Made by a program: the position numbers and the translations under genes. The notes beneath the pieces are model-generated. The model saw only the letters and a program-made list of their open reading frames with translations, was not told the DNA's origin and did not search any database. This document shows, in pieces, positions 3,105-55,417 of a stretch of 64,000 nucleotides of DNA (position 1 is its first letter; each line of letters starts with the position of its first letter). Source of the stretch: Leucosporidium creatinivorum (taxonomy: Eukaryota > Basidiomycota > Microbotryomycetes > Leucosporidiales > Leucosporidiaceae); NCBI GenBank assembly GCA_001600635.1, contig BCKL01000021.1, forward strand, positions 412,602-476,601, written 5' to 3'.

Positions 3105-5009
3105 ATGGCATATCAGGACAGTCCCTGCAAGCTCTTCAGCTACCTGGAGACGGCCTCTTTCCCACCCTGCGCTGCTCCTCACCCGGCCCCACTGGAATCG
3201 TTTTGGACACGGCACTTCAACTCGCCTTTGACGAAGCGGAACAGCGAGGGCGCCATTCCCGAGGTTGCAGACGTAGTAGTCATCGGCTCTGGCATCACCG
3301 GTACCTGCGCAGCGACGAGGCTAGTCGAGCAGCTGCTGGCGGAGGACGACCGCGCGGCGAACGCTGAGCCGCTCGCTATCGTGATGCTGGAGGCGAGGGA
3401 CTTCTGCAGTGGAGCGACAGGTGAGCTTTCGCCATACTACTACTGCTCTCAGACCAGCTGTAGAGCTGCTACTCGCTGTTGCCGGCTAGCTCGGCGCCGC
3501 TCGCTGACCAATCTCGGTTGCAGGTCGAAACGGGGGGCATGTCACTTCGATCCCCAGGGTGGAGTTCGACACTATCACTTCGACGTACGGCGTCCAAGAG
3601 GCCAAGCGCGCAGTTGAGCTGGAAGACCGAGCGGTCGACTTCTTTCTGGAGACTTGCAAAGCCGAGGGATGGGAGAAGGAGGTCGATCTCGTACAGGGTG
3701 GGAATGTGTGTGGATAAAATCGCTATCAAACCGCGCCGTCATCAGCTGACTCTTCCCACCGCACAGATTCTCCTCTTCGACGACGAAGCGAGCGCCGAGG
3801 CTATCAAACTCGAGTTCAAAGCCGCCGAGAAGGCAGGGATCGACGTCTCCAAGATCCATTGGCTCTCAGCGGATGAGCTACTCAAGCGAGTAGGCGCCAA
3901 AGCTCACGCCGGAGTCGCCATCCCCAGCGCAAACATCTACCCCCTCCGCTTCGTTACCGCCCTCTTCCAACGAGCTCTTCGCCAGATCTCTTACGCAGGA
4001 GACAAGCCGCCAGTATCGCTCGACGTCTACACCCACACCGTCGTCTCCACCGTCGAGCCCTCCACCCACTCGCCCTACCGCTGGACGGTTCAAACCTCTC
4101 GAGGCCCAATTCTCGCTCGCTCCGTCATTCACGCTACCAACGGCTACGCTTCCTCCATCGTCCCCTCCCTTTCTTCTGGACCCTCTCGCATCGTCCCTAC
4201 TCGCGGTCAAGTCCTCGCCTACGCCCCTCAGCCAACCTCGAACCCTCGCTGGGCGACCGCCTTCTCGGGGCCTCAGGCCCGAGAGTACTTCTTCCAGAGG
4301 CCTGATGGCGGACCCGTGATCCTCGGTGGGGCACGAGCGGCTGCTGGGCCGCCGTTCGAGTTTGGCGTGTCGGATGACTCGCACGTGAATAAGCGAGTGG
4401 AGGCCGAGCTTCGAGAGTATTTGCCGAAGCAATTCCCTCGGTGGTTTGCGGATGGGAAGGAAGGACGAGTGGAGCAATCTTGGACTGGTATAATGGGCTA
4501 CAGGGTTGGAGGAGTGCCGCTGGTGGGTCGCAGCTCGGTCATCGCTCTCGCTCGTCGTCCCTGACCTCGTTCGATCCACAGGTCGGCCAGCTGTATGTCG
4601 ATGGCAAGGCGCTCGAAGGCCAGTTCATCTCGTGAGTTGCTCGATGTGCTTCGAGAGGTGATAACAAGCCAGGTGCACCGCTCGCTCTTAGCTGGTTCTC
4701 GAGCTTACTCGCCGCCTCGGCTTCGGCTTCGGTCCTTCGCAGTGCCGGCTACAGCGGTCACGGAGTAGTCCGAGCGCCAGTCTGGTGTGTTGTCCTCTCT
4801 CACGCCTCGCGCCGAACCGGATGCTGAAGCTTCTCACCCACAGCGGTCAAGCCGTCGCCGAGATGGCCCTCGCCGAGCTGCGTGGGGAGTTGATCAAGAT
4901 GCCCGACTGGTTGCCCGAGCACTTCCTCTCGACGCCTGATGGCTCAATGAACAAGGCGGCCGTACTGGAGGGACCTGAAGTGCAAGGTTCGAAGTGCTTG
5001 GTGGTTTGA
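3105..5009 (+). CDS. FAD-dependent oxidoreductase (DAO family)
   Basis: Starts at ATG 3105 and stops at TGA 5007-5009, with five or so short introns. Near the N terminus is a Rossmann dinucleotide motif (VVVIGSGITGTCAA). The sequence GRNGGHVT is formed by splicing after SGAT, and the C-terminal block ends in SAGYSGHGVVRAP, the usual FAD-contacting end of D-amino-acid/glycine oxidase-like (DAO, PF01266) proteins. YFFQRPDGGPVILGG and GIMGYRVGGVPLVG are further family hallmarks. Such fungal proteins are usually uncharacterised and oxidise small amines or amino acids with FAD; the substrate cannot be read from sequence. No signal peptide or membrane segment is visible. The first intron contains a CTCGGCG element just before its GCTGACC branch site. 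Confidence 0.85.
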
Positions 5010-5286: not shown

Positions 5287-6817
5287 ATGACGTTCCCTAG
5301 TCGCCCTTGGTCCCCGCCCGAAGTCGACCACCTGCTTCAGGCCGTCCGTGACAAAGGCGCGAAGCCGGGAGGGGAAATGGGCCTCGAAAGGCCGGTTTGG
5401 GAGGACGTTGGAGAGAGCTTTGATCCTCCTCGCTCTGCTCAAAGCTGCAGAGTCAAGTACGGCCTGTGGAGGAAAGAGCAGCAGCGCACGGGAGCGAACG
5501 ACGGCTCGACAGCTCAGATCAAGACACCTCGCTCCACTCGTTCTACAGCTACTGTACGTCTAGCATGATATGCGATCTAGTTCACACGATGAAGCTGACC
5601 AGAGTTAAGGTCTAGGCCGACTTCGAAGCTCCCACCGCTACTTCGTCCCGATTCGGAGACGTCGAGCCGCCAGCATCGCGTCCCAAGTCGTCCGAAAGCG
5701 GGACTGAGCACGAAGAAGCATCGAAGGCTTCAGAGGGAGGTCGAGTGTGGCACCAGGAGCTGGATGGAGTGCTGAAAGCTGGTGAGCGGCTACCCCTTTC
5801 TCGGCGTCAGCTCGCCTCCCTTCTCCCGCGCACTAGCAGAGCTGATACTTACCTTCGTACCCATCTTAAAGCGCTCAAAGCGATCTCTAACATCGGACGT
5901 AGGAGTGCCGTCGTCGATGGCCGTGTCGTGGCGACCTGCCGACACCCGGTCATCTCGGAGTTGATCTTGCGCAGGACAGGCAAGATCAGAACCCGAACGC
6001 AGATTGCTTCTCGCATCCAGATCTTGAAGAATACCGCTCCTGTTGATCCAGAGTGTGAGTTCTCTCTTGCGCTTCTCTAGCGGGAGGGCGAAGACCGAGG
6101 ATCCGAATCCGAATCGCTAACTGACATCAGTTTTCTCGTCGCAGTCGTGAGGCTGGTCAACGAGCCCATCATCGACGGTACCGCTTTTGGAGCTCTCGAC
6201 TTTGCTACCATCCTCGGCCCTCCTTACCCTACGACTTTCTCCCCCAACGCCTCGGCTGGCTCATCGAGCGCCTTCCTCGGCCATCCTACCGAGACATACC
6301 CCAAGAACAGGGCTCATGTGGAGCACAACTTCCCTCCGAAGTCTGATGTGCCCCACGCACCCGACTCGATCGCCGCTGCTCGAGCGTTTGAGGTACAGGC
6401 GGAGCGGGCGCCGAGGTTGGCGATGGACCTCGATGAACCGGCGACCTCGACGCCGTCTTCAATAGTGGATACCGAAGCCTCGACGAATAGGAGCTCCTAC
6501 CTCGATGAGAGAACCTCACATGCTTCGACCCTCGTCTCGACCGACGAGCAGCCCTTCTCGCCCGACGACGACGAAGCCTTGCTCGAGCTTTACGCTGCTT
6601 ATGGACCCGCCTACAAGACCATTGCTCGAGCTATCACCCCTCAACGGCATAAAAGGGAAGTCAACGAGCGTCTGGACTACCTGTGAGTGTGGTTCCCTTC
6701 CTTCTGTTGGCGAGGAAACTAACGCCGAGCTAACTTATCTCAACGTGCAGGAGTCAGCCCTACGACTTTCAACCCTTCTTACCGCAAGCCTCGGACACTT
6801 CTATGCAGATTGACTGA
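5287..6817 (+). CDS. TEA/ATTS-domain protein with N- and C-terminal SANT/Myb modules
   Basis: Five exons (5287-5553, 5616-5781, 5872-6054, 6145-6682, 6751-6817) give an in-frame 406-residue protein ending DTSMQID. An N-terminal SANT-like module (RPWSPPEVDHLLQAV to CRVKYGLWRK) spans about residues 5-65. At about 132-200 lies a TEA DNA-binding domain: VWHQELDGVLKAALKAI, IGRRSAVVDGR, then RRTGKIRTRTQIASRIQILK as the recognition helix. The uninterrupted domain appears only if 5782-5871 is removed as an intron. That intron has a GTGAGC donor, GCTGATAC branch and AAAG acceptor, is 90 nt long and in frame, so an automatic model could retain it. A second SANT module (FSPDDDEALLEL) starts near residue 343. 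Likely a nuclear sequence-specific transcription factor. TEA identification is by eye and strong; targets are unknown. Confidence 0.82.
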
Positions 6818-7236
6818 CCCGCCAGAGGAGACGAGCGGAGTATGGTGCTTTGTGACGGATGGGGAGCGAGGGTGCCGAGCTTGAAGAGGAGCGCCGAACG
6901 GGCAGCAGACAGCGTCTGAGCTGCTGTGCTCGCTGTAAATACAGCCCAGCAACTCGTTACCACCGCAGCTCCGTACCGAGAGATCTAGGAGAGTGGTCTG
7001 CTCGCCTCGGACCTCGCAACTTCGGCGATGGCTGTTCAGCTGGCAGCTCTTCAGGCGGGAGAAAGAGCGACAGCAAGAGGAGACATTGCAAAGCTTTCGG
7101 TTCGTGGTGTAGCTTGTGTGTGAAAGCCAGATCTAAGTGAATGTACGCGCCCAAGTGCTCGAGCTCGAACCGCTCAGCCGCTCTTTCCTTTCTCCTCATC
7201 GCTCGTCTCGCTTCTTCGACTCGCCGCCTCGCTAGG
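6818..7236 (+). other. intergenic, promoter region of the multi-SANT gene
   Basis: No supported gene. The last 80 bases before ATG 7237 are pyrimidine-rich (CTTTCCTTTCTCCTC), as in other 5' leaders of this window. An upstream in-frame ATG at 7141 would add 32 residues and is considered less likely. Confidence 0.5.
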
Positions 7237-9716
7237 ATGGAAGAATTCGCCACGGTCGATCCCTCACTGCTCATGCACCCGGCCTACAACGCTGCCCCGG
7301 CGAACAGTGGAGCTCTGATAGCGCCAACGCAACCTCGACCCCGGAAGAACAGGCGCTGGCCGGACGACGAGTCGGAAGCCTTACGGGAGCTCGTTGGAAC
7401 ATGTAGGAACTCACTGGGTCAGACTGCGTGGGCGCCCGTGCTCGAGCAGCTCACTCAGCGCTATCCACCACCACCTACTTTCCCTCCCCGAACGAAGCGC
7501 CAGCTGCAAACTCACTGGACACAAATGAACATCAACGGTACGAGCTCTCACTTCCATGAGTGGACGCCCCCTGCTTCCCGCCGGCTCCGACGCTGACCTC
7601 AGACGTTGCAGGCGAACCTCGGAAGCGACGGCGCGATACTACGTCTACTCCAGCTGCTGCACCCAATGCTGTAGACGATAACCGACCTCCAAAAAAGACC
7701 CGAGTGTACTCTGAAGCCCCTTTCACGCCAACGGAGGACGAAGAGCTGCTCGGCTTGAACCGACTTTGGACGGGCCAGTACAAGCGCATCGGCCGAGCTA
7801 TGGAACCTCAACGTCGCAAGCAAGACGTTCGAGAACGATTGGATCAGCTGTATGTATATACTTGACGCCGGCTGATTTTGGAATCGAGCTGAACCCGCTC
7901 ATTCGCGCAGCCTTTCTCTTTCGCCGAGCTCGGCGCCTTCGACCTCGCCTGTTCTCGCTCAACCCCAACCTCATCAAGACGCACCAGTCGACGTCAAAAG
8001 CCTCTACAAGAATCTGCGCACTCAGTACGGGCGCCGTCGCTGCCCCAAAATCACCTTCGTGCTCGAGCTCTGCTCGGCTTCGCCGCTAAGCCGCCAGGAA
8101 GGCGAGCAAGCAGGGATCGTCAACCCAATCCGTGAGCCCCAGCTGTTATATGCCGATACGGCTCGTCACTGATGCACTCTACTCGATAGCCGCTACAAAC
8201 CGTCGAGCGATGCCTCCTCCCTCCACGCCTCCCTCCGAGTCAGGCGGTTCTCGGTCTCCTCGAGCCGCCGTAGCATTCACAAGTCCACCCCCAACGCCCT
8301 TTCCATCCCCTTCTCTCAACTCAGCTTCCCCCACGCCCCCTCCCCCTAGCCCTCGCCCTTCGCGCAACATCAAGCTTCGAGTCTTCTTCGACGAGGAGCA
8401 GCACAACTCGCAGCCACCGACGCGACCAGGATCTACAAAGTGGCTTCCGAGCCATACTTCCAACCTCTCTCGCGCGGTGGACGCCGCGTCAACCCTCGTA
8501 CAGAGCAGCTGTCTCTCCTCCGACGAATGGGACTCGCTGGGCCGCGAATTGGAACCGGCGCGAGCTGGTCCAGCCTGTCGTCGACAATGGTTCAAGATGC
8601 AGGCCGAGAGCAGCGGGCGAGACGGGTTTGCTGGGGAGGAAGACGAAGAGGAGGAGGACAGCGAGGAGGAGGAAGAAGATGGATTGTTCACGCCCGAGGA
8701 GGACGCCGAGCTACTTCGGCTCAACGACGCGGCACCATGGGGCCAATACCGTACCATCGCTGGCTCGCTGAGTCAACCTCGCGACTGGAGATACGTTCGG
8801 CGCCGTCTTGACCAGCTGTACGTCTTCGACCTGTCCCTCCCTGCCGCCCGTTCGCCGAATTTTCGCCATTGCAGCCTCTCGGTCCGCTCCAAGCTCGACT
8901 CAACCCCCCTTCGCATCCGTCTCAGCGCTCCTTCACCCTCCCTCAAGCGTCGCCTCTCTCAATCTGTGTCTCCCAGCCCTGCAGCGGTCGATCTCAACTC
9001 GTTCAAGCCTCGCAAGAGAAACGGCAACGGATGGCTCTGGATCCCCGAGGAGGATGCTGTACTTGAGCAAATGCAAGGTTTGCCCCCGTCTGAATGGCCT
9101 GGATGGGAGGAGGTCGCTCTCGCGCTGGCCGAGGAGGAGCCGATGCCGGATTATGCTTCGCCGAGGACGGCAGCGCATTGCATGGGTCGTTGGAGGTTTC
9201 TCGGTACGCTTCGATTTTTCTACTCTACGTGCGAGTAACTTCCGCGGACCATCCCTCCGCTTCGCTCCTCCAGAAACTCGACGCTTGGACGAAGCCCGAG
9301 CTACCTCGGTCCAGAAGTCGGTGCACGCATCGGCATCTCTAGCTTCGGTGAGCATGTCCCTGCAATTCGGTATCTTGCTCACAGCTGACCGTGGTGCATC
9401 CATGACCTCTCAGCCGCCTTCTCGAGCCCCATCGCCGCCGATCACCCCCGCCGCGAAGTTCACCTTCGGCTCCAACAGCCACCTCTCCCTTCCATCTCCT
9501 ACGCCCACTCCACTTCGCCAATATTCCGCCCACTCGCCGGCGCCGGCGCTCAGAACTCCAACTCAAGCATCCCTCATTCGTTCGCAAGTCGACTCCGCGC
9601 CGGCTCGCAACGTCGATGTCGTCAAGGGGCTTGCCTCTGGCGAGCGGGAGCGGAGAGGCACACTCGAGGAGGCGCTAGAAGGACTCGCAGCGTTCTTGGA
9701 GCCATGGGAAGACTGA
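7237..9716 (+). CDS. protein with about five SANT/Myb-like modules
   Basis: Seven exons (7237-7537, 7612-7849, 7911-8131, 8190-8817, 8875-9203, 9274-9347, 9414-9716) join in frame to 697 residues, ending FLEPWED. Module 1 (RRWPDDESEALRELV to LQTHWTQM), module 2 (FTPTEDEELLGL to RERLDQL), a degenerate module 3 (STKWLPSH to CRRQWFKM), module 4 (LFTPEEDAELLRL to RRRLDQL) and module 5 (WLWIPEEDAVLEQM to CMGRWRFL) follow in order. Modules 2 and 4 resemble each other and the C-terminal module of the upstream TEA gene. An acidic Asp/Glu stretch precedes module 4. Reading through 8132 without splicing would stop at 8172 and restart at ATG 8211, giving two genes; the 58-nt intron 8132-8189 keeps one frame. 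The intron at 8818-8874 is 57 nt, in frame and less certain. A nuclear DNA- or histone-binding role is inferred. Confidence 0.65.
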
Positions 9717-25144: not shown

Positions 25145-27477
25145 ATGGGCGCGCTCCTCTCGATCCCTTTGCTGGGAGCTATCCCCGGTCTCGCTACTTC
25201 AGCTGCCAGTGCCTGCGTCGGGGGACTCGCCTTCTTCTGCACTGGACAAGCTGTACGTCCTCTCTCATCCCCTCTGCGCTCCGCCTTCCCATCTCTCGAG
25301 CCGCCTCGCCTCGCCGCGCTGTACCCCTCGCTAAACCTCGCTCCCCAATGTGATCTTGACTCCATACAGGCCTCCGCCCTAACCCGCTCCTGCAACTGCA
25401 ACTCCTCCGTAGCCACTCGCGTCGGCTTCTCCCTCCTCTTCCTCCTCAACTCGCTTCTCGCATGGTTGATGCTCACCGATTGGGCCGTCAAAGCTATTGC
25501 CAAGTGGAGCTACGACTACATCAAGATGGACTGCGAGGAGGGGAGGTGCTACGGTGTCCTTGCGGTGAGTTGAAAGTGATGGCAGGCGCGATTCGAGGCG
25601 CTCGGCGATTGAAGCGGTCGCTGATTTTCGGCCCCCTCACTTTTGGAACCCCTCCCTCCCGCTCAATCTCCGCCTTCACAATTTGCTCGATCCGCCCTTC
25701 ACCGCACTATAGGTTCACCGCATTTGCTTCGCCCTCGCGCTGTTCCACGCCATCCTTGCCTGCCTCCTCATCGGCGTCAAGGATACTCGAACGAAGCGTG
25801 CGGCGATCCAGAATGGGTGCGCTCTTTCCTGTCCCCTTTGCTTTGGGAGAGCGGTGCTGGGAGAGCGGTGCTGATCAAGTGGCCGTTAACTTTACCTCGA
25901 ACAGATGGTGGGGCCCGAAAGTAGCCGCCTGCATGCTCCTCACCGTGGCGGCCTTCTTCATCCCGAACGGCTTCTTCATGTTCTACGGCAATTGTACGTA
26001 TCCAGTCTTGCATTCCTTCGCGACCTCGCTGACCCTCTCGCATCTCCCTTCGCTCGCTCACCTCCCGCTCGTCCATCATCACTCGCTTTCTCAAACCCCT
26101 CAGACATTTCCCTTCTCGGCGCCACCATCTTTATCCTAATCGGCCTCGTCCTCCTCATCGATTTTGCTCACACCTGGTCCGAAACCTGCCTCACAAATTG
26201 GGAGGAGACCGACTCGCCCCTCTGGAAATGGACCTTGATTGGCTCAACACTCGGGCTCTACATCCTCTCCATCGTCCTCATGGCGCTCCAGTACGCCTTC
26301 TTCTCGGGCAAGGGATGCGGATTGAACACCTTCTTCATCACCGCCAACCTCGTCCTCTCCGTAATCGTCTCGGGCCTCTCCATCGCCCCAGCAATCCAAG
26401 AAGCCAACCCCCGCTCCGGGTTGGCTCAGAGCGGTATGGTCGTAGCCTACACTTCTTACCTCGTCACCTCGGCAATCGCAAACCACGACGATCCGACCGG
26501 CCAATCCTCCTCCTGCAACCCCCTCCAAGCTCGAGCGGCCGGAGCAAGGACGGGAATGGTCGTCCTGGGAGCGGTCTTCACCTTTCTTGCGATCGCTTAT
26601 TCGACGAGTAGGGCGGCTACGCAGAGTAAGGCGCTGGTGGGTAAGGGGAGGAGGGCGAGTAATAAGGGAGTAGGAGAAGGATATGAGAGGCTGGATAGTC
26701 ATGCCGAGATGGGGGATGTGGGAGACGCCAGTGTGAGGGAACAGCCTAAGAGGAAGGAGACTTTGAGGTATCAGGCTTTGATGGCTGCTGTCGCTGAGGG
26801 GTGAGTTCGGCTTTGAGTTGCCCTTGCCTCGCTTTTCCCAACTCTCGTCTCTGTTCGCTCGCTCGCTCGTCGACTGACCCTCCTACCTCCCTCTTATCAC
26901 CAAACAGATCCCTCCCCGCCTCCGTCCTCGAAGAAGACGACTCGGACGACGAGGATGACCATTCCCCCTCCTCGGACGAGCACGACGATGAGCGGTCTGG
27001 CACGAGGTACAACTATAGCTGGTTCCACGTCATCTTCATCATGGCGACCATGTATGTTGCCATGCTGTTGACCAACTGGTGAGTCGATTTGCCCCCGTCG
27101 TCTTTTCGCCGCGCCGCGCCGCGCCGAGCTGGTCGAGCTCCCTCACCTAGCTGGCGCGTCGCGCGCTGAGCTTCCCCTCTCGCGCGGCGCGCGCACTTCC
27201 TCCTCCTCTGAGCGTTTCACTGACCCTCTCCCACCCACACGCACACAGGAACGTCGTCTCCCCCGACCCCTCTCCCTCGCCCTCTCCCTCCTCCTTCACC
27301 TCCACCCTCCTGCACAACCTCCTCGACTCGGCTTCCGACGCCGAAGCCACACCAGTCAAGATTGGCCGCTCCCACGTCGCCATGTGGATTCGGATCGTTA
27401 GCTCGTGGGTCTGTTTGGTGCTGTATGCGTGGAGTTTGGTCGCGCCGGTGGTGCTGCCGGAGAGATTTGGTGAATAG
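25145..27477 (+). CDS. TMS1: serine incorporator (SERINC/TMS1 family) membrane protein
   Basis: Start ATG 25145 ([20 protein letters not shown]), stop TAG 27475-27477. About ten membrane segments: FFCTGQA, then [46 protein letters not shown], the [20 protein letters not shown] segment, [35 protein letters not shown], and a C-terminal [20 protein letters not shown] followed by PVVLPERF. These are diagnostic for SERINC. The long hydrophilic loop holds an acidic DDSDDEDD run and a basic patch. Family members are integral membrane proteins of the endomembrane system implicated in lipid handling. Seven or eight introns, most of them in frame with hydrophobic exon ends. Convergent with the dioxygenase at 28076. 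Confidence 0.93.
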
Positions 27478-34913: not shown

Positions 34914-35276
34914 GAATGGCTGACAGCTAGGCTGTATCGAACATTCTTTGCGATGGAGTTGCTCCGTATAGTGCTCGAGCGTGGGATTCAAGCGGTGCCG
35001 ATGCCTGACTCCACCATGAGGTGAACGGGTCGTCGGCCGAGTATGGCTTGCGAGCAGCTCGGCGCAAAGTTCTGACATTGAAGATGGCCTCTGTTCGCCC
35101 AGTGAGCACCGAATCAGCTCTCTCACAGCTTTCTGTCTAGCCTCGGTGCGCATGTGGTGTATCACACTTCTTGAGCCGACGACTTGGTCCCGCTCGACCC
35201 CCGGTCGCCTTTCTCCCTCCCACCATCACCTCGTCGCTCCACCTCGCCGACTCGTCGACTACGGGAGCAGCTAGCA
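34914..35276. other. intergenic; promoter of SANT protein A, duplicated upstream of SANT protein B
   Basis: The last 95 bases or so (from about 35180) are nearly identical to 53762-53858 upstream of the paralogue. No other feature. Confidence 0.6.
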
Positions 35277-36848
35277 ATGGAACCCAGCTACTTCTTGCAG
35301 CCCAACAACCAGCTCGAGGACTTTGCTCAGCATTGGAGCAGCAATCAGCAGCAGCAGCTTGAACCAGCTCAGCAGACGAGGAGGAACGAGCTCGAGGACG
35401 CGTCGGCGGATCAATGGGCCGATTTTGGCGGAGCAGACAGCTACCTTGGTGGACAGGGAAGAACCAGATCGAGCTTGGGTACAGAGAGTGAGTTTGCTCG
35501 TGCTCGCGGGCCCCGAGCGTGTGAGAAGCGCGAGCCTGAAGCGGACGGAGGGCTGAGGGCTGACGGCTGGCTTGCTACGCTGCAGACCCGTACGAGCTAC
35601 CTCCGGGGCAGATCGACCCTTCTCCCATGGTCCCTCGCATGGTCTTCAGCGGCCCTGCGCCCACGCTAGCTTCGCCGAGTCCCATTCCAGCTGAGTCGGC
35701 GCCTCAACGTCAGCAAGGCTCCCACGTTTCGCTTTCGAGAGCTCTGCTGACGCTCTTTCACACTATAAAGAAACCCCCCAACCCGTCAAAACTGGGGCTT
35801 GGGACGCCGAGGAAACGAGCCGCCTCCTGCACCATGCCAGCTTCACCGAGACGAACTGCTGGAACGACATTTACCCTCAACTGCAGACGAACCGCACTCT
35901 CGAGAGCGTGAAAGGACAGCACGCGAGATACAAGATCTGCTACTACCATCCTGAGGGTGAGCCGGTCGCCCTCTCTATCCGACTCGAGGCTGAGCCGTTC
36001 CCCGCCCACAGTCACTCGCTCGTTCGACTCCTCACCGGCGCCGAGGATCATCGGTGGGCTCCTCCTACGTTGACTCAACTCGTCTGGTCCCAACTGACAC
36101 ACTTCTCTGCCTTGCAGGCCCCGCTCCATCGCCCGATTGGAAGCCATGGCACCCGACCGAGCACGAAACGTTGGTCGCCATGCTCAAACCCACTGGAAAT
36201 CAGAACTGGAGCGCGATCCAGAAGGCTTTGGGGACAGGCAGGAGCGTTATGGAGCTTCAGCGTCACGTCGGGATGCGCAAGGGATCCCGCTCGGACGCTG
36301 CCAGTGAGTGGGCCCCGAGTTGAGGGTTTCGAGCTCTGAATGACCCTGTTCTCTCCTCAGAGACCTTGGCTACCACCGCTACGAGCGTTGGATGCGTCGA
36401 GTCCACCCCCAACCGACCTGCCTCCCTTCCAGCACCTCTCAACGCCAACGTCGCCGAAGGAGGCGGAGCGGCACCCTCTCCGAACTCGGTCTACCAGGGC
36501 TCTGCGACAGCCGCCGCTCCTCCTCCTCACCATAGCACCACCCTCCCTTACTTCCCTACGCCCCAAGCGATCGCCGCGCCCATTTCCGTCCCCGCCGCCC
36601 TCTACAACCTCCTCTCAGCCATCGCCGACATCCTCGCGCCGACCGAATCTTCCGCCTCCGAGCAGGCGCATCTGCCCCAGCTGTTGCTCTGCGGACGCTG
36701 CAGTAATCCGATTGTGGTGCTGGGAGAGAAACGTGGAAGTGAGCAGGAGGAAGGCGAGGGTGAGTCGACGAAAAGGAGGAAGGTCGGCGATCTAGGGAAG
36801 GAGGGAGCAGCGGGCGAGGATGGGCAAGATTTCGGGGGCTGGGCTTGA
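35277..36848 (+). CDS. two-module SANT/Myb-like protein A
   Basis: Start ATG 35277 (MEPSYFLQPNNQLEDFAQHW), stop TGA 36846-36848; five exons. The N-terminal exon is Gln-rich. After an intron with a GTCAGC donor and a GCTGACG branch (about 35709-35769) comes a SANT-like module, AWDAEETSRLLHHASF to HARYKICYYHPE. A second follows (WHPTEHETLVAML to LQRHVGMRKG). A Ser/Pro-rich linker leads to a C-terminal helix LYNLLSAIADIL, a CGRCSNPI (CxxC) knuckle, a KRRKV nuclear-localisation-like cluster, and a GGWA end. The same C-terminal plan recurs in paralogue B. DNA binding in the nucleus is inferred; no named family is recognised beyond SANT/Myb. Confidence 0.72.
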
Positions 36849-53298: not shown

Positions 53299-53858
53299 TG
53301 CTGCTGGTGGACCTTGCGAAGGAGGGAGGGGTTCGGGCTCGGCCGTTTAGTTTGTCAGTTCTGTAACATGCTTCTCACCGGCCACGATTGTCAAAACAGC
53401 GTTTGTGCCCTTTGCAGCATCTGTAGCTGTGTACACGAGATCTGCGAGCAAGCGCGACCAGAGGAACGTCGAGTAATCGCCGAGCACCGAGGGTAGTCTC
53501 CGAAAGAGGCTGGGCTGGTCTGAGAGGTCGTCGGCATCCAGCATTGCTCTTGGAGGAGGTACTGGCGGGAACTATGTCTCTTCAGGTCTTGTCCCGCCTC
53601 AGTCACGACGCTGTGAACCAACATCCCGGCGCTCGACGAGGCTCGGCGAAGAGTTTGGTCGTCCAAGGTGCCTCCGCTTTGAAGAAGAACTCGTACGGAG
53701 ATCGTCCACGAAATCAACATCTGAACTCGATGCTCGTGTAGCTGCATAGACGTCTCGAGCGGACGACTTGGCCCCGCTCGACCCCGTTCGCCTTTTTCCC
53801 TCCCGCCATCACCTCGTCGCTTCATCTCGCCGACTCGTCGACTACGGGACAGCTAGCA
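53299..53858. other. intergenic; duplicated promoter segment of SANT protein B at its right end
   Basis: Nothing supported from 53299 to about 53760; the last ~97 bases are nearly identical to the segment upstream of SANT protein A. Confidence 0.5.
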
Positions 53859-55417
53859 ATGGATCCCAGCTACTTCTTACAGCCCAACAACCAGCTCGAG
53901 GACTTTGCTCAGCATTGGAGCAGCAATCAGCAGCAGCAGCTTGAACCAGCTCAGCAGACGAGGAGGAACGAGCTCGAGGACGCGTCGGCGGATCAGTGGG
54001 CCGATTTTGGCGGAGCAGACAGCTACTTTGGTGGACAGGGAAGAACCAGATCGAGCTTGGGCGCAGAGAGTGAGTTTGCTCGTGCTCGCGGGCCCCGAGC
54101 GTGTGAGAAGCGAGAGCCTGAAGCGGACGGAGGGCTAACGGCTGGCTTACTACGCTGCAGACCCGTACGAGCTACCTCCGAGGCAGATCCACCCATCTCC
54201 CATGGTCCCTCGCATGGTCTTCAGCGGTCCCGCGCCAGCAATTCCTGGCCCGAGCGCGACAGCGTGTGAAGCTCGAGATCTTTCTCCTGCTCCGGCGTGT
54301 GAGTCCCTTCCGCTAACTCGAGCGTAGAGCTCTGCTGACCAGCTGCCTACAGCGTCCGCGAACACCAAGACGAAGTGGTCGAGCGAAGAAACGAGCCGAC
54401 TTCTTCAGCTCTCTAGCTTCACCGAACCAAATCGCTGGGAGGTCATCTACCCTCAGCTGCAAACGACCCGCACGCGTTCCTCAGTCCAGGTGCAGTATCG
54501 AAACTACAGACTGATCTACTACCATCCTGCTCGTAAGCTGCTTCACTCGCACAGCAAGAAGCATCGAAGCTGACCGACGTCGCCGCCAACAGCAACTCGC
54601 TCGTTCGGAACGGCTCCTGCGCCCCTCATCATCGGTGAGCGTCTAAGCGGCCAGTCAACCGTTCCCTCATAGGCTGACTCGTCTCTGCTACCCTTCAGGA
54701 CCTGCTCTTTCGCCAGATCTCGCGCCCTGGAGCGACGCCGAGCACAGCGAACTGCTCTCGTTGCTCAAGCCGGAGGGTCAGCAAGAGTGGGGAGGTATTC
54801 ACAAGAAGCTTGGTACGGGAAGAAGCATCAAAGGTATCCAAAAGCATGTGGGTATGCACCAACGAGGATTCTCGGGGGCGAGTGAGTCGTCGTTTCCGAA
54901 TCCTGACCTCGGGCCTCGCTGATGAATCATTTCTCTAGACATCCCGTCTACTACGACTAGCGCGATTGATTCGGTTCCAGCATCCACCCGAGCCTCCTCC
55001 TCTCCTGCGCCGTCTCTGAGCTCGCCACACGCCAAAGGCTTCGGACCTCCTCCCGCGCCAAAGACCAAGCGCCGCCGCTCTGCGACTCCTGCTGCGCCAC
55101 CCCAGTCTCAGCAGACCAGCACTGCAGCTTCTACCGCATCGCAAGAGCTCATGCGACCTTGCTCATCCACCACCGCCCTCTTCGACCTTCTTTCGACCAT
55201 CGCCGACGTTCTCTCCACTGGCGAGTCGGAGCGCAGCCCCGTCTTGGAGCCCAAGATCTGTCGCTGCTGCAGCAAGCCCATCGCGAGCAAAAGCGGTGGG
55301 AGCAAGCGTGGATGCGAGGGTGAGCGGGAGGGACACTGTGTCGCCAAACGAATGAGGGGCGATGAGTCGAACGCCGAGGTTGAGGATGGAGGCGACGGAT
55401 ACGGCGGCTGGGTGTAG
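53859..55417 (+). CDS. two-module SANT/Myb-like protein B (paralogue of A)
   Basis: Start ATG 53859 (MDPSYFLQPNNQLEDFAQHW), stop TAG 55415-55417. Exon 1 differs from that of paralogue A at only a few codons. The first SANT module is KWSSEETSRLLQLSSF to YRNYRLIYYHPA; the second is WSDAEHSELLSLL to IQKHVGMHQRG. The C terminus repeats the plan of A: LFDLLSTIADVL, then CRCCSKPI (CxxC), a basic cluster KRMRGD, and GGWV. Downstream of exon 2 the pair has diverged strongly, and an extra small exon (TRSFGTAPAPLII) precedes the second module. A nuclear DNA-binding role is inferred. Confidence 0.72.

Follow-up and report, generated by a model that had tools for sequence, protein, structure and literature searches.

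We describe a gene of the basidiomycete Leucosporidium creatinivorum which, judged by its sequence, is a single-gene fusion of two known families within a local gene cluster, i.e. of the TEA factors and of a family of genes encoding a pair of SANT modules. The gene lies in a stretch of 64,000 nucleotides (the window; positions 412,602 to 476,601 of contig BCKL01000021.1, here C21) and encodes a protein in which a TEA domain is flanked by one SANT module on each side. The best explanation for the whole, which we regard as probable, is that a TEA segment was copied into a SANT-pair gene and that the product acts as a transcription regulator of composite sites. To our knowledge, SANT modules are normally absent from TEA factors, and none of the open-licence papers listed in literature searches described a TEA-SANT protein, as judged from titles and the beginnings of abstracts. 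What appears to be new is the combination of the TEA and SANT-pair families, and its local origin is the more interesting part.

Architecture of the fusion gene

Spliced together, the five exons (Table 1) give an uninterrupted reading frame of 406 codons followed by a stop, and all four introns show GT..AG borders, so that the 406-residue spliced product proposed in a preliminary description of this DNA stands. Two of the three domains, TEA and SANT-C, are certain by Pfam, and the third, SANT-N, is backed by its paralogues and a model of middling quality. In tblastn searches with the spliced protein against the C21 and C1 stretches analysed, the N-module matches begin at residues 4-8 and end at 64-112, the match to a TEA gene located further downstream on the contig (C21:482934) spans residues 93-330, and the C-module matches reach residue 382-402, the strongest of them beginning at 307-334.

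Exon 2 contains no in-frame ATG, and a stop lies ahead of it in the same frame; translation of the TEA part must therefore start in an exon further upstream, a role that exon 1 can fill. Exon 4 is a single open frame containing both the tail resembling that of a TEA gene and the SANT-C module. Two genes, one for SANT modules and one for a TEA factor, that overlap or are mispredicted as one could mimic a fusion, as the join of exons 1 and 2 is read from splice signals only and intron 1 is in phase 0, compared to a phase-1 donor after the N-module in several paralogues (read by eye). Against this speak the TEA tail and SANT-C sharing one exon and one frame, the lack of a start codon in exon 2 and the pairing of N- and C-modules being a rule of the family, and we regard the existence of two separate genes in place of a fusion as very improbable.

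Table 1. Features of the fusion gene and its downstream neighbourhood (positions in the window)
Feature	Position	Strand	Evidence
Fusion gene, five exons, 406 aa: SANT-N, TEA, TEA tail, SANT-C	5287..6817	+	splice reading, Pfam
SANT-N module, within exon 1 (5287-5553)	5308..5460	+	paralogues, profile, Pfam match below cut-off, model
Intron 1, 62 nt, phase 0	5554..5615	+	splice reading
TEA, first part (helix 1), within exon 2 (5616-5781)	5742..5781	+	Pfam, splice reading
Intron 2, 90 nt, phase 1, open in frame; position common to the two other TEA genes found	5782..5871	+	
TEA, second part (L1 loop, helices 2-3), within exon 3 (5872-6054)	5872..6035	+	Pfam
Intron 3, 90 nt, phase 1, in-frame stop; position common to the other TEA genes	6055..6144	+	
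Post-TEA tail, resembling the tail of the C21:482934 TEA gene; right edge approximate	6145..6460	+	tblastn
SANT-C module, end of exon 4 (6145-6682)	6543..6682	+	Pfam, genome and profile searches
Intron 4, GT from third base of final leucine codon	6683..6750	+	common to 18/18 C-modules
Exon 5, C-terminal tail	6751..6817	+	splice reading
Neighbour gene(s) from this SANT-pair family, with two further N-C pairs plus one SANT-like stretch (read by eye)	7237..9716	+	Pfam, profile

The TEA domain and its DNA-contacting parts

The Pfam TEA profile (PF01285) matches residues 132-199 of the spliced protein with an E-value of 8e-14 and 52.1 bits (cut-off 25.1), covering profile positions 3-68 of 68, which confirms the TEA domain first recognised from the bare sequence. 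At E 0.001, the genome contains three TEA matches, i.e. C1:1504509 (83.4 bits), C21:482934 (53.3 bits) and exon 3 of the fusion gene taken alone (44.4 bits). The TEA domain of the fusion gene shows 52% identity (35/67) to that of the C21:482934 gene, 36% (24/66) to that of the C1 gene and 33% (22/66) to human TEF-1, compared to 61% (39/64) for the C1 gene, which is the canonical TEA gene of this genome, to TEF-1. Four solved chains of TEF-1 and TEF-3 match it at E-values of 3.4e-5 to 8.8e-5. With a TEA domain above the Pfam cut-off the protein resembles the TEA/ATTS factors TEAD/TEF-1, Scalloped, Tec1 and AbaA, from which it differs by the SANT modules flanking this domain and by changes in its L1 loop and helix 3.

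The helix-3 sequence of the C1 gene is RTRKQVSSHIQVL and that of the fusion gene is RTRTQIASRIQIL, the latter retaining the R-R-Q-S-IQ-L positions with several others substituted, and the altered L1 loop exceeds that of both other TEA genes in this genome by two residues. According to a study on TEAD, these are the DNA-contacting parts, the L1 loop contacting the minor and helix 3 the major groove (PMC5876656). As both depart from the canonical sequence, DNA binding by the TEA domain is not assured, and the target motif is probably non-classical or TEA binding reduced. These changes would also fit a TEA domain that does not bind DNA at all and serves as a protein-interaction module, targeting being left to the SANT pair. 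However, the L1 region aligns without gaps and at equal length to human TEF-1, its length thus not being abnormal, the TEA profile is covered from position 3 to its end, and the comparison with the downstream TEA gene (pN 0.29 versus pS 0.78 over the TEA part) suggests continued constraint. We therefore consider a complete loss of DNA binding unlikely and favour a TEA domain that would still take part in reading DNA.

Intron positions shared by the TEA genes

In all three TEA genes found, one and the same alanine codon of helix 1 is split by an intron in phase 1, and a second intron, again in phase 1, lies in the ninth codon after the LK ending the domain; for the tail of the C21:482934 gene the comparison is based on tblastn and reading-frame translations. 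The first of these corresponds to the 90-nt intron of the fusion gene that is open in frame, and reading through it leads to a stop in both other TEA genes (C1 and C21:482934). The shared position and these stops suggest that it is most likely an inherited TEA intron which is open here by chance, in line with the preliminary description, which had it excised.

Retention of this intron in some or all transcripts would result in a 436-residue form with 30 extra residues inside the TEA domain. This form still matches the TEA profile (1.4e-10, 41.8 bits, cut-off 25.1, profile 14-68), at a score 10 bits lower than that of the spliced form. A codon score trained on 987 codons leaves retention undecided: in frame, the intron has a per-codon value of -0.25, lower than in either of its other two frames, exons 1-4 score 0.02 to 0.26, and the surely non-coding, stop-bearing intron 3 reaches 0.28 in frame, for which reason the score does not discriminate here. 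Position and phase common to both other TEA genes, in which retention leads to a stop, and the gain of 10 bits upon removal leave retention only a slim chance, and we continue with the spliced 406-residue form. The earlier concern that a retained intron could hide the TEA domain was not supported, as the retained form stays above the cut-off and exon 3 alone is still found at 44.4 bits.

The two SANT modules

SANT-C is recognised by the Pfam model Myb_DNA-bind_6 (8.4e-10, 39.1 bits, cut-off 22.9, best stretch 343-394), and SANT-N stays below the cut-off, its best match being Myb_DNA-binding with 0.0032 and 18 bits versus 24.4. The description of one SANT module on each side of the TEA domain is thereby supported by Pfam on the C-terminal side, and on the N-terminal side it is backed by paralogues and a three-helix model.

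Myb/SANT domains typically contain three regularly spaced tryptophans. SANT-C deviates from this pattern, the tryptophan positions being occupied by F, Y and L (read by eye), and two invariant W are common to the 12 aligned N-modules. Searched against solved structures, the profile of the C-module finds chains of CEF1 and Myb, its ten best matches having E-values of 1e-4 to 1.3e-3. The protein thus shares two Myb-like modules with the two-repeat Myb/SANT proteins (R2R3-like; Trichomonas MYB21, CEF1, c-Myb) and differs from these in the TEA cassette separating the modules and in the F, Y and L of SANT-C. The closest paralogue of SANT-C is C21:254561 with 78% identity, followed by C21:241593 with 70%; SANT-C looks constrained, as suggested by a dN of 0.19 and a dS of 0.86 over 46 codons against C21:254561.

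SANT-N is matched by two paralogues at 4e-8 and 3e-7. Its AlphaFold model, built from three sequences, has a mean pLDDT of 65.5 with 45 of 89 residues at 70-90 and shows helices at residues 10-23, 35-43 and 51-68. Foldseek returned a Myb protein as top match of this model with a probability of 0.98 but an E-value of 0.38, and none of its 40 matches reached E 0.001. The profile of 12 N-modules found no clear relative in the PDB (the best E-value, 0.048, was that of an engineered protein; Myb chains and SNAPC4 reached 0.3-0.4), and the profile-profile comparison with the C-module is weak (P 2.3e-4, probability only 44%). Taken together, the N-terminal module is likely, although not proven, to be a SANT module.

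SANT-N shows 45-47% identity to C21:376602 and 396797 and only 24-27% to C21:254148 and 242002, which are paired with the C-modules closest to SANT-C. With the nearest paralogues differing between the two halves, these may derive from different family members, i.e. may have been shuffled, or else the N-module may evolve fast.

A SANT-pair family detected in one contig region

Searching the 27.7-Mb genome with SANT-C yielded at least 18 matches at E up to 1, 18/18 on C21 between 183 and 421 kb, and a composed majority C-module query returned the same 18; all counts from genome searches, which covered C21 except for withheld bases, are lower bounds. The C-modules span 238 kb (C21:183587-421419, in part within the window at 5308-8818), and none was detected elsewhere in the genome. 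The N-module search gave at least eight matches at E up to 1, again all on C21, compared to at least 66 matches at E up to 1 for the general Myb family, which are distributed over many contigs with 27 of them on C21.

Profile searches detected 18 C-modules and 14 N-module matches in stretches of C21 and one stretch of C1; on C21 these comprised 170-380, 394-402, 412.6-476.6 and 481.4-492 kb, and 2,040 bases of 394-402 kb are N. A borderline nineteenth C-module (C21:484879, E 0.1) was left out, and the N-module matches at C21:215897 and 215964, which overlap in different frames, were counted as one. This copy (C21:215897-216077) may be broken or hide an unrecognised splice. For the remaining five C-modules the N-module, missed by the profile in all five cases, was read by eye from the frames; two of these, C21:370793 and 399043, are also recognised by the Pfam Myb model, one matches Myb_DNA-bind_4 below the cut-off and two are visual readings alone.

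Including these five, the N-module is located upstream of the C-module on the same strand in 18/18 cases, and in every C-module the last leucine codon has a GT starting at its third base. The fusion gene shows these same family features, with both modules on one strand and the GT at the end of its C-module. The distance between the modules is 87-443 nt in 17 pairs versus 1,082 nt in the fusion gene, because here the TEA cassette sits between the halves. The 17 other genes share N-module, C-module and GT with the fusion gene and differ from it in that none is among the three TEA matches obtained genome-wide at E 0.001; the neighbour gene(s) directly downstream (Table 1) likewise gave no TEA match. 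The two SANT modules of the fusion gene are hence the standard halves of an N-C pair recurring 17 more times on C21, a point not made in the preliminary description, and the TEA cassette is the intruder.

Three blocks of the cluster (C21:184552-188810, 212287-216468 and 236488-241754) match one another along 3.2-4.3 kb with 80.6-88.5% identity; of the three pairings, two are in inverted orientation. The blocks carry SANT genes, the first one additionally a 308-codon frame without significant Pfam match, and 745 bp around one gene are repeated in inverted orientation at 92%. These repeats suggest that the cluster grows by local duplication. Mobile dispersal of the family is unlikely, given all 18 C-modules in one contig region and the local duplication of blocks of 3.2-4.3 kb.

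Genomic surroundings

A mating-type locus was considered and rejected, as 0/8 homeodomain and 0/5 STE3 matches of the genome are located on C21; a STE3-type receptor match of the genome reaches 1.1e-30, as fits a fungus. The C21:482934 TEA gene is directly followed, on its own strand, by a Myb/SANT-bearing stretch (C21:484854-487534). A read-through fusion of this TEA gene with its Myb/SANT stretch (C21:485357) was considered but not adopted, the C-module profile matching at E 0.1 only. In viral contigs 10 stretches matched a pattern, none of which was confirmed as a relative.

Within the window, a gene for a FAD-dependent oxidoreductase (DAO, 2.7e-22) is located at 3464-4561 upstream of the fusion gene and a Serinc gene (3.2e-69) at 25890-26801. 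A 521-bp repeat of 92% identity occurs at 35142-35661 and 53726-54236; no more than about 0.5 kb after each copy lies a match to the Myb family (36144-36260 and 54367-54510), and these may represent a further small SANT family. Elsewhere on C21, the segments 272351-277321, harbouring a DUF2828/DUF7788 gene, and 312990-318611 are duplicated at 80-93% identity with one part inverted.

Proposed origin and function of the fusion

The TEA cassette, comprising two introns and the tail, is most like the TEA gene located 64 kb downstream on the same contig. The simplest history would be that a TEA gene segment, i.e. the helix-1 exon, the TEA exon and the tail exon together with their introns, was copied as genomic DNA and placed between the halves of a SANT-pair gene. 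The TEA introns residing in the same codons and in the same phase in all three TEA genes argue for copying at the DNA level. We infer the copying step and its direction from these similarities; with the TEA part saturated at its silent sites, the copying is undated and its direction unproven.

The protein most likely acts in the nucleus as a sequence-specific regulator of transcription, and its TEA domain would read a composite site jointly with the Myb-like SANT pair. More tentatively, the 240-kb region might be a transcription-factor nursery, in which two-SANT regulators are multiplied and their halves shuffled by segmental duplication, both local and inverted, and in which a neighbouring TEA gene was captured, resulting in a protein with three DNA-binding modules and a new composite specificity kept by selection; we regard this wider scenario as possible rather than probable.

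If the gene is expressed, it would represent a traceable birth of a transcription-factor architecture, with the fusion gene, the family that received the cassette and a donor-like TEA gene all on one 500-kb contig and with introns recording how the cassette moved. It would then allow testing whether joined DNA-binding folds alter target choice and whether clustered regulator families feed new combinations.
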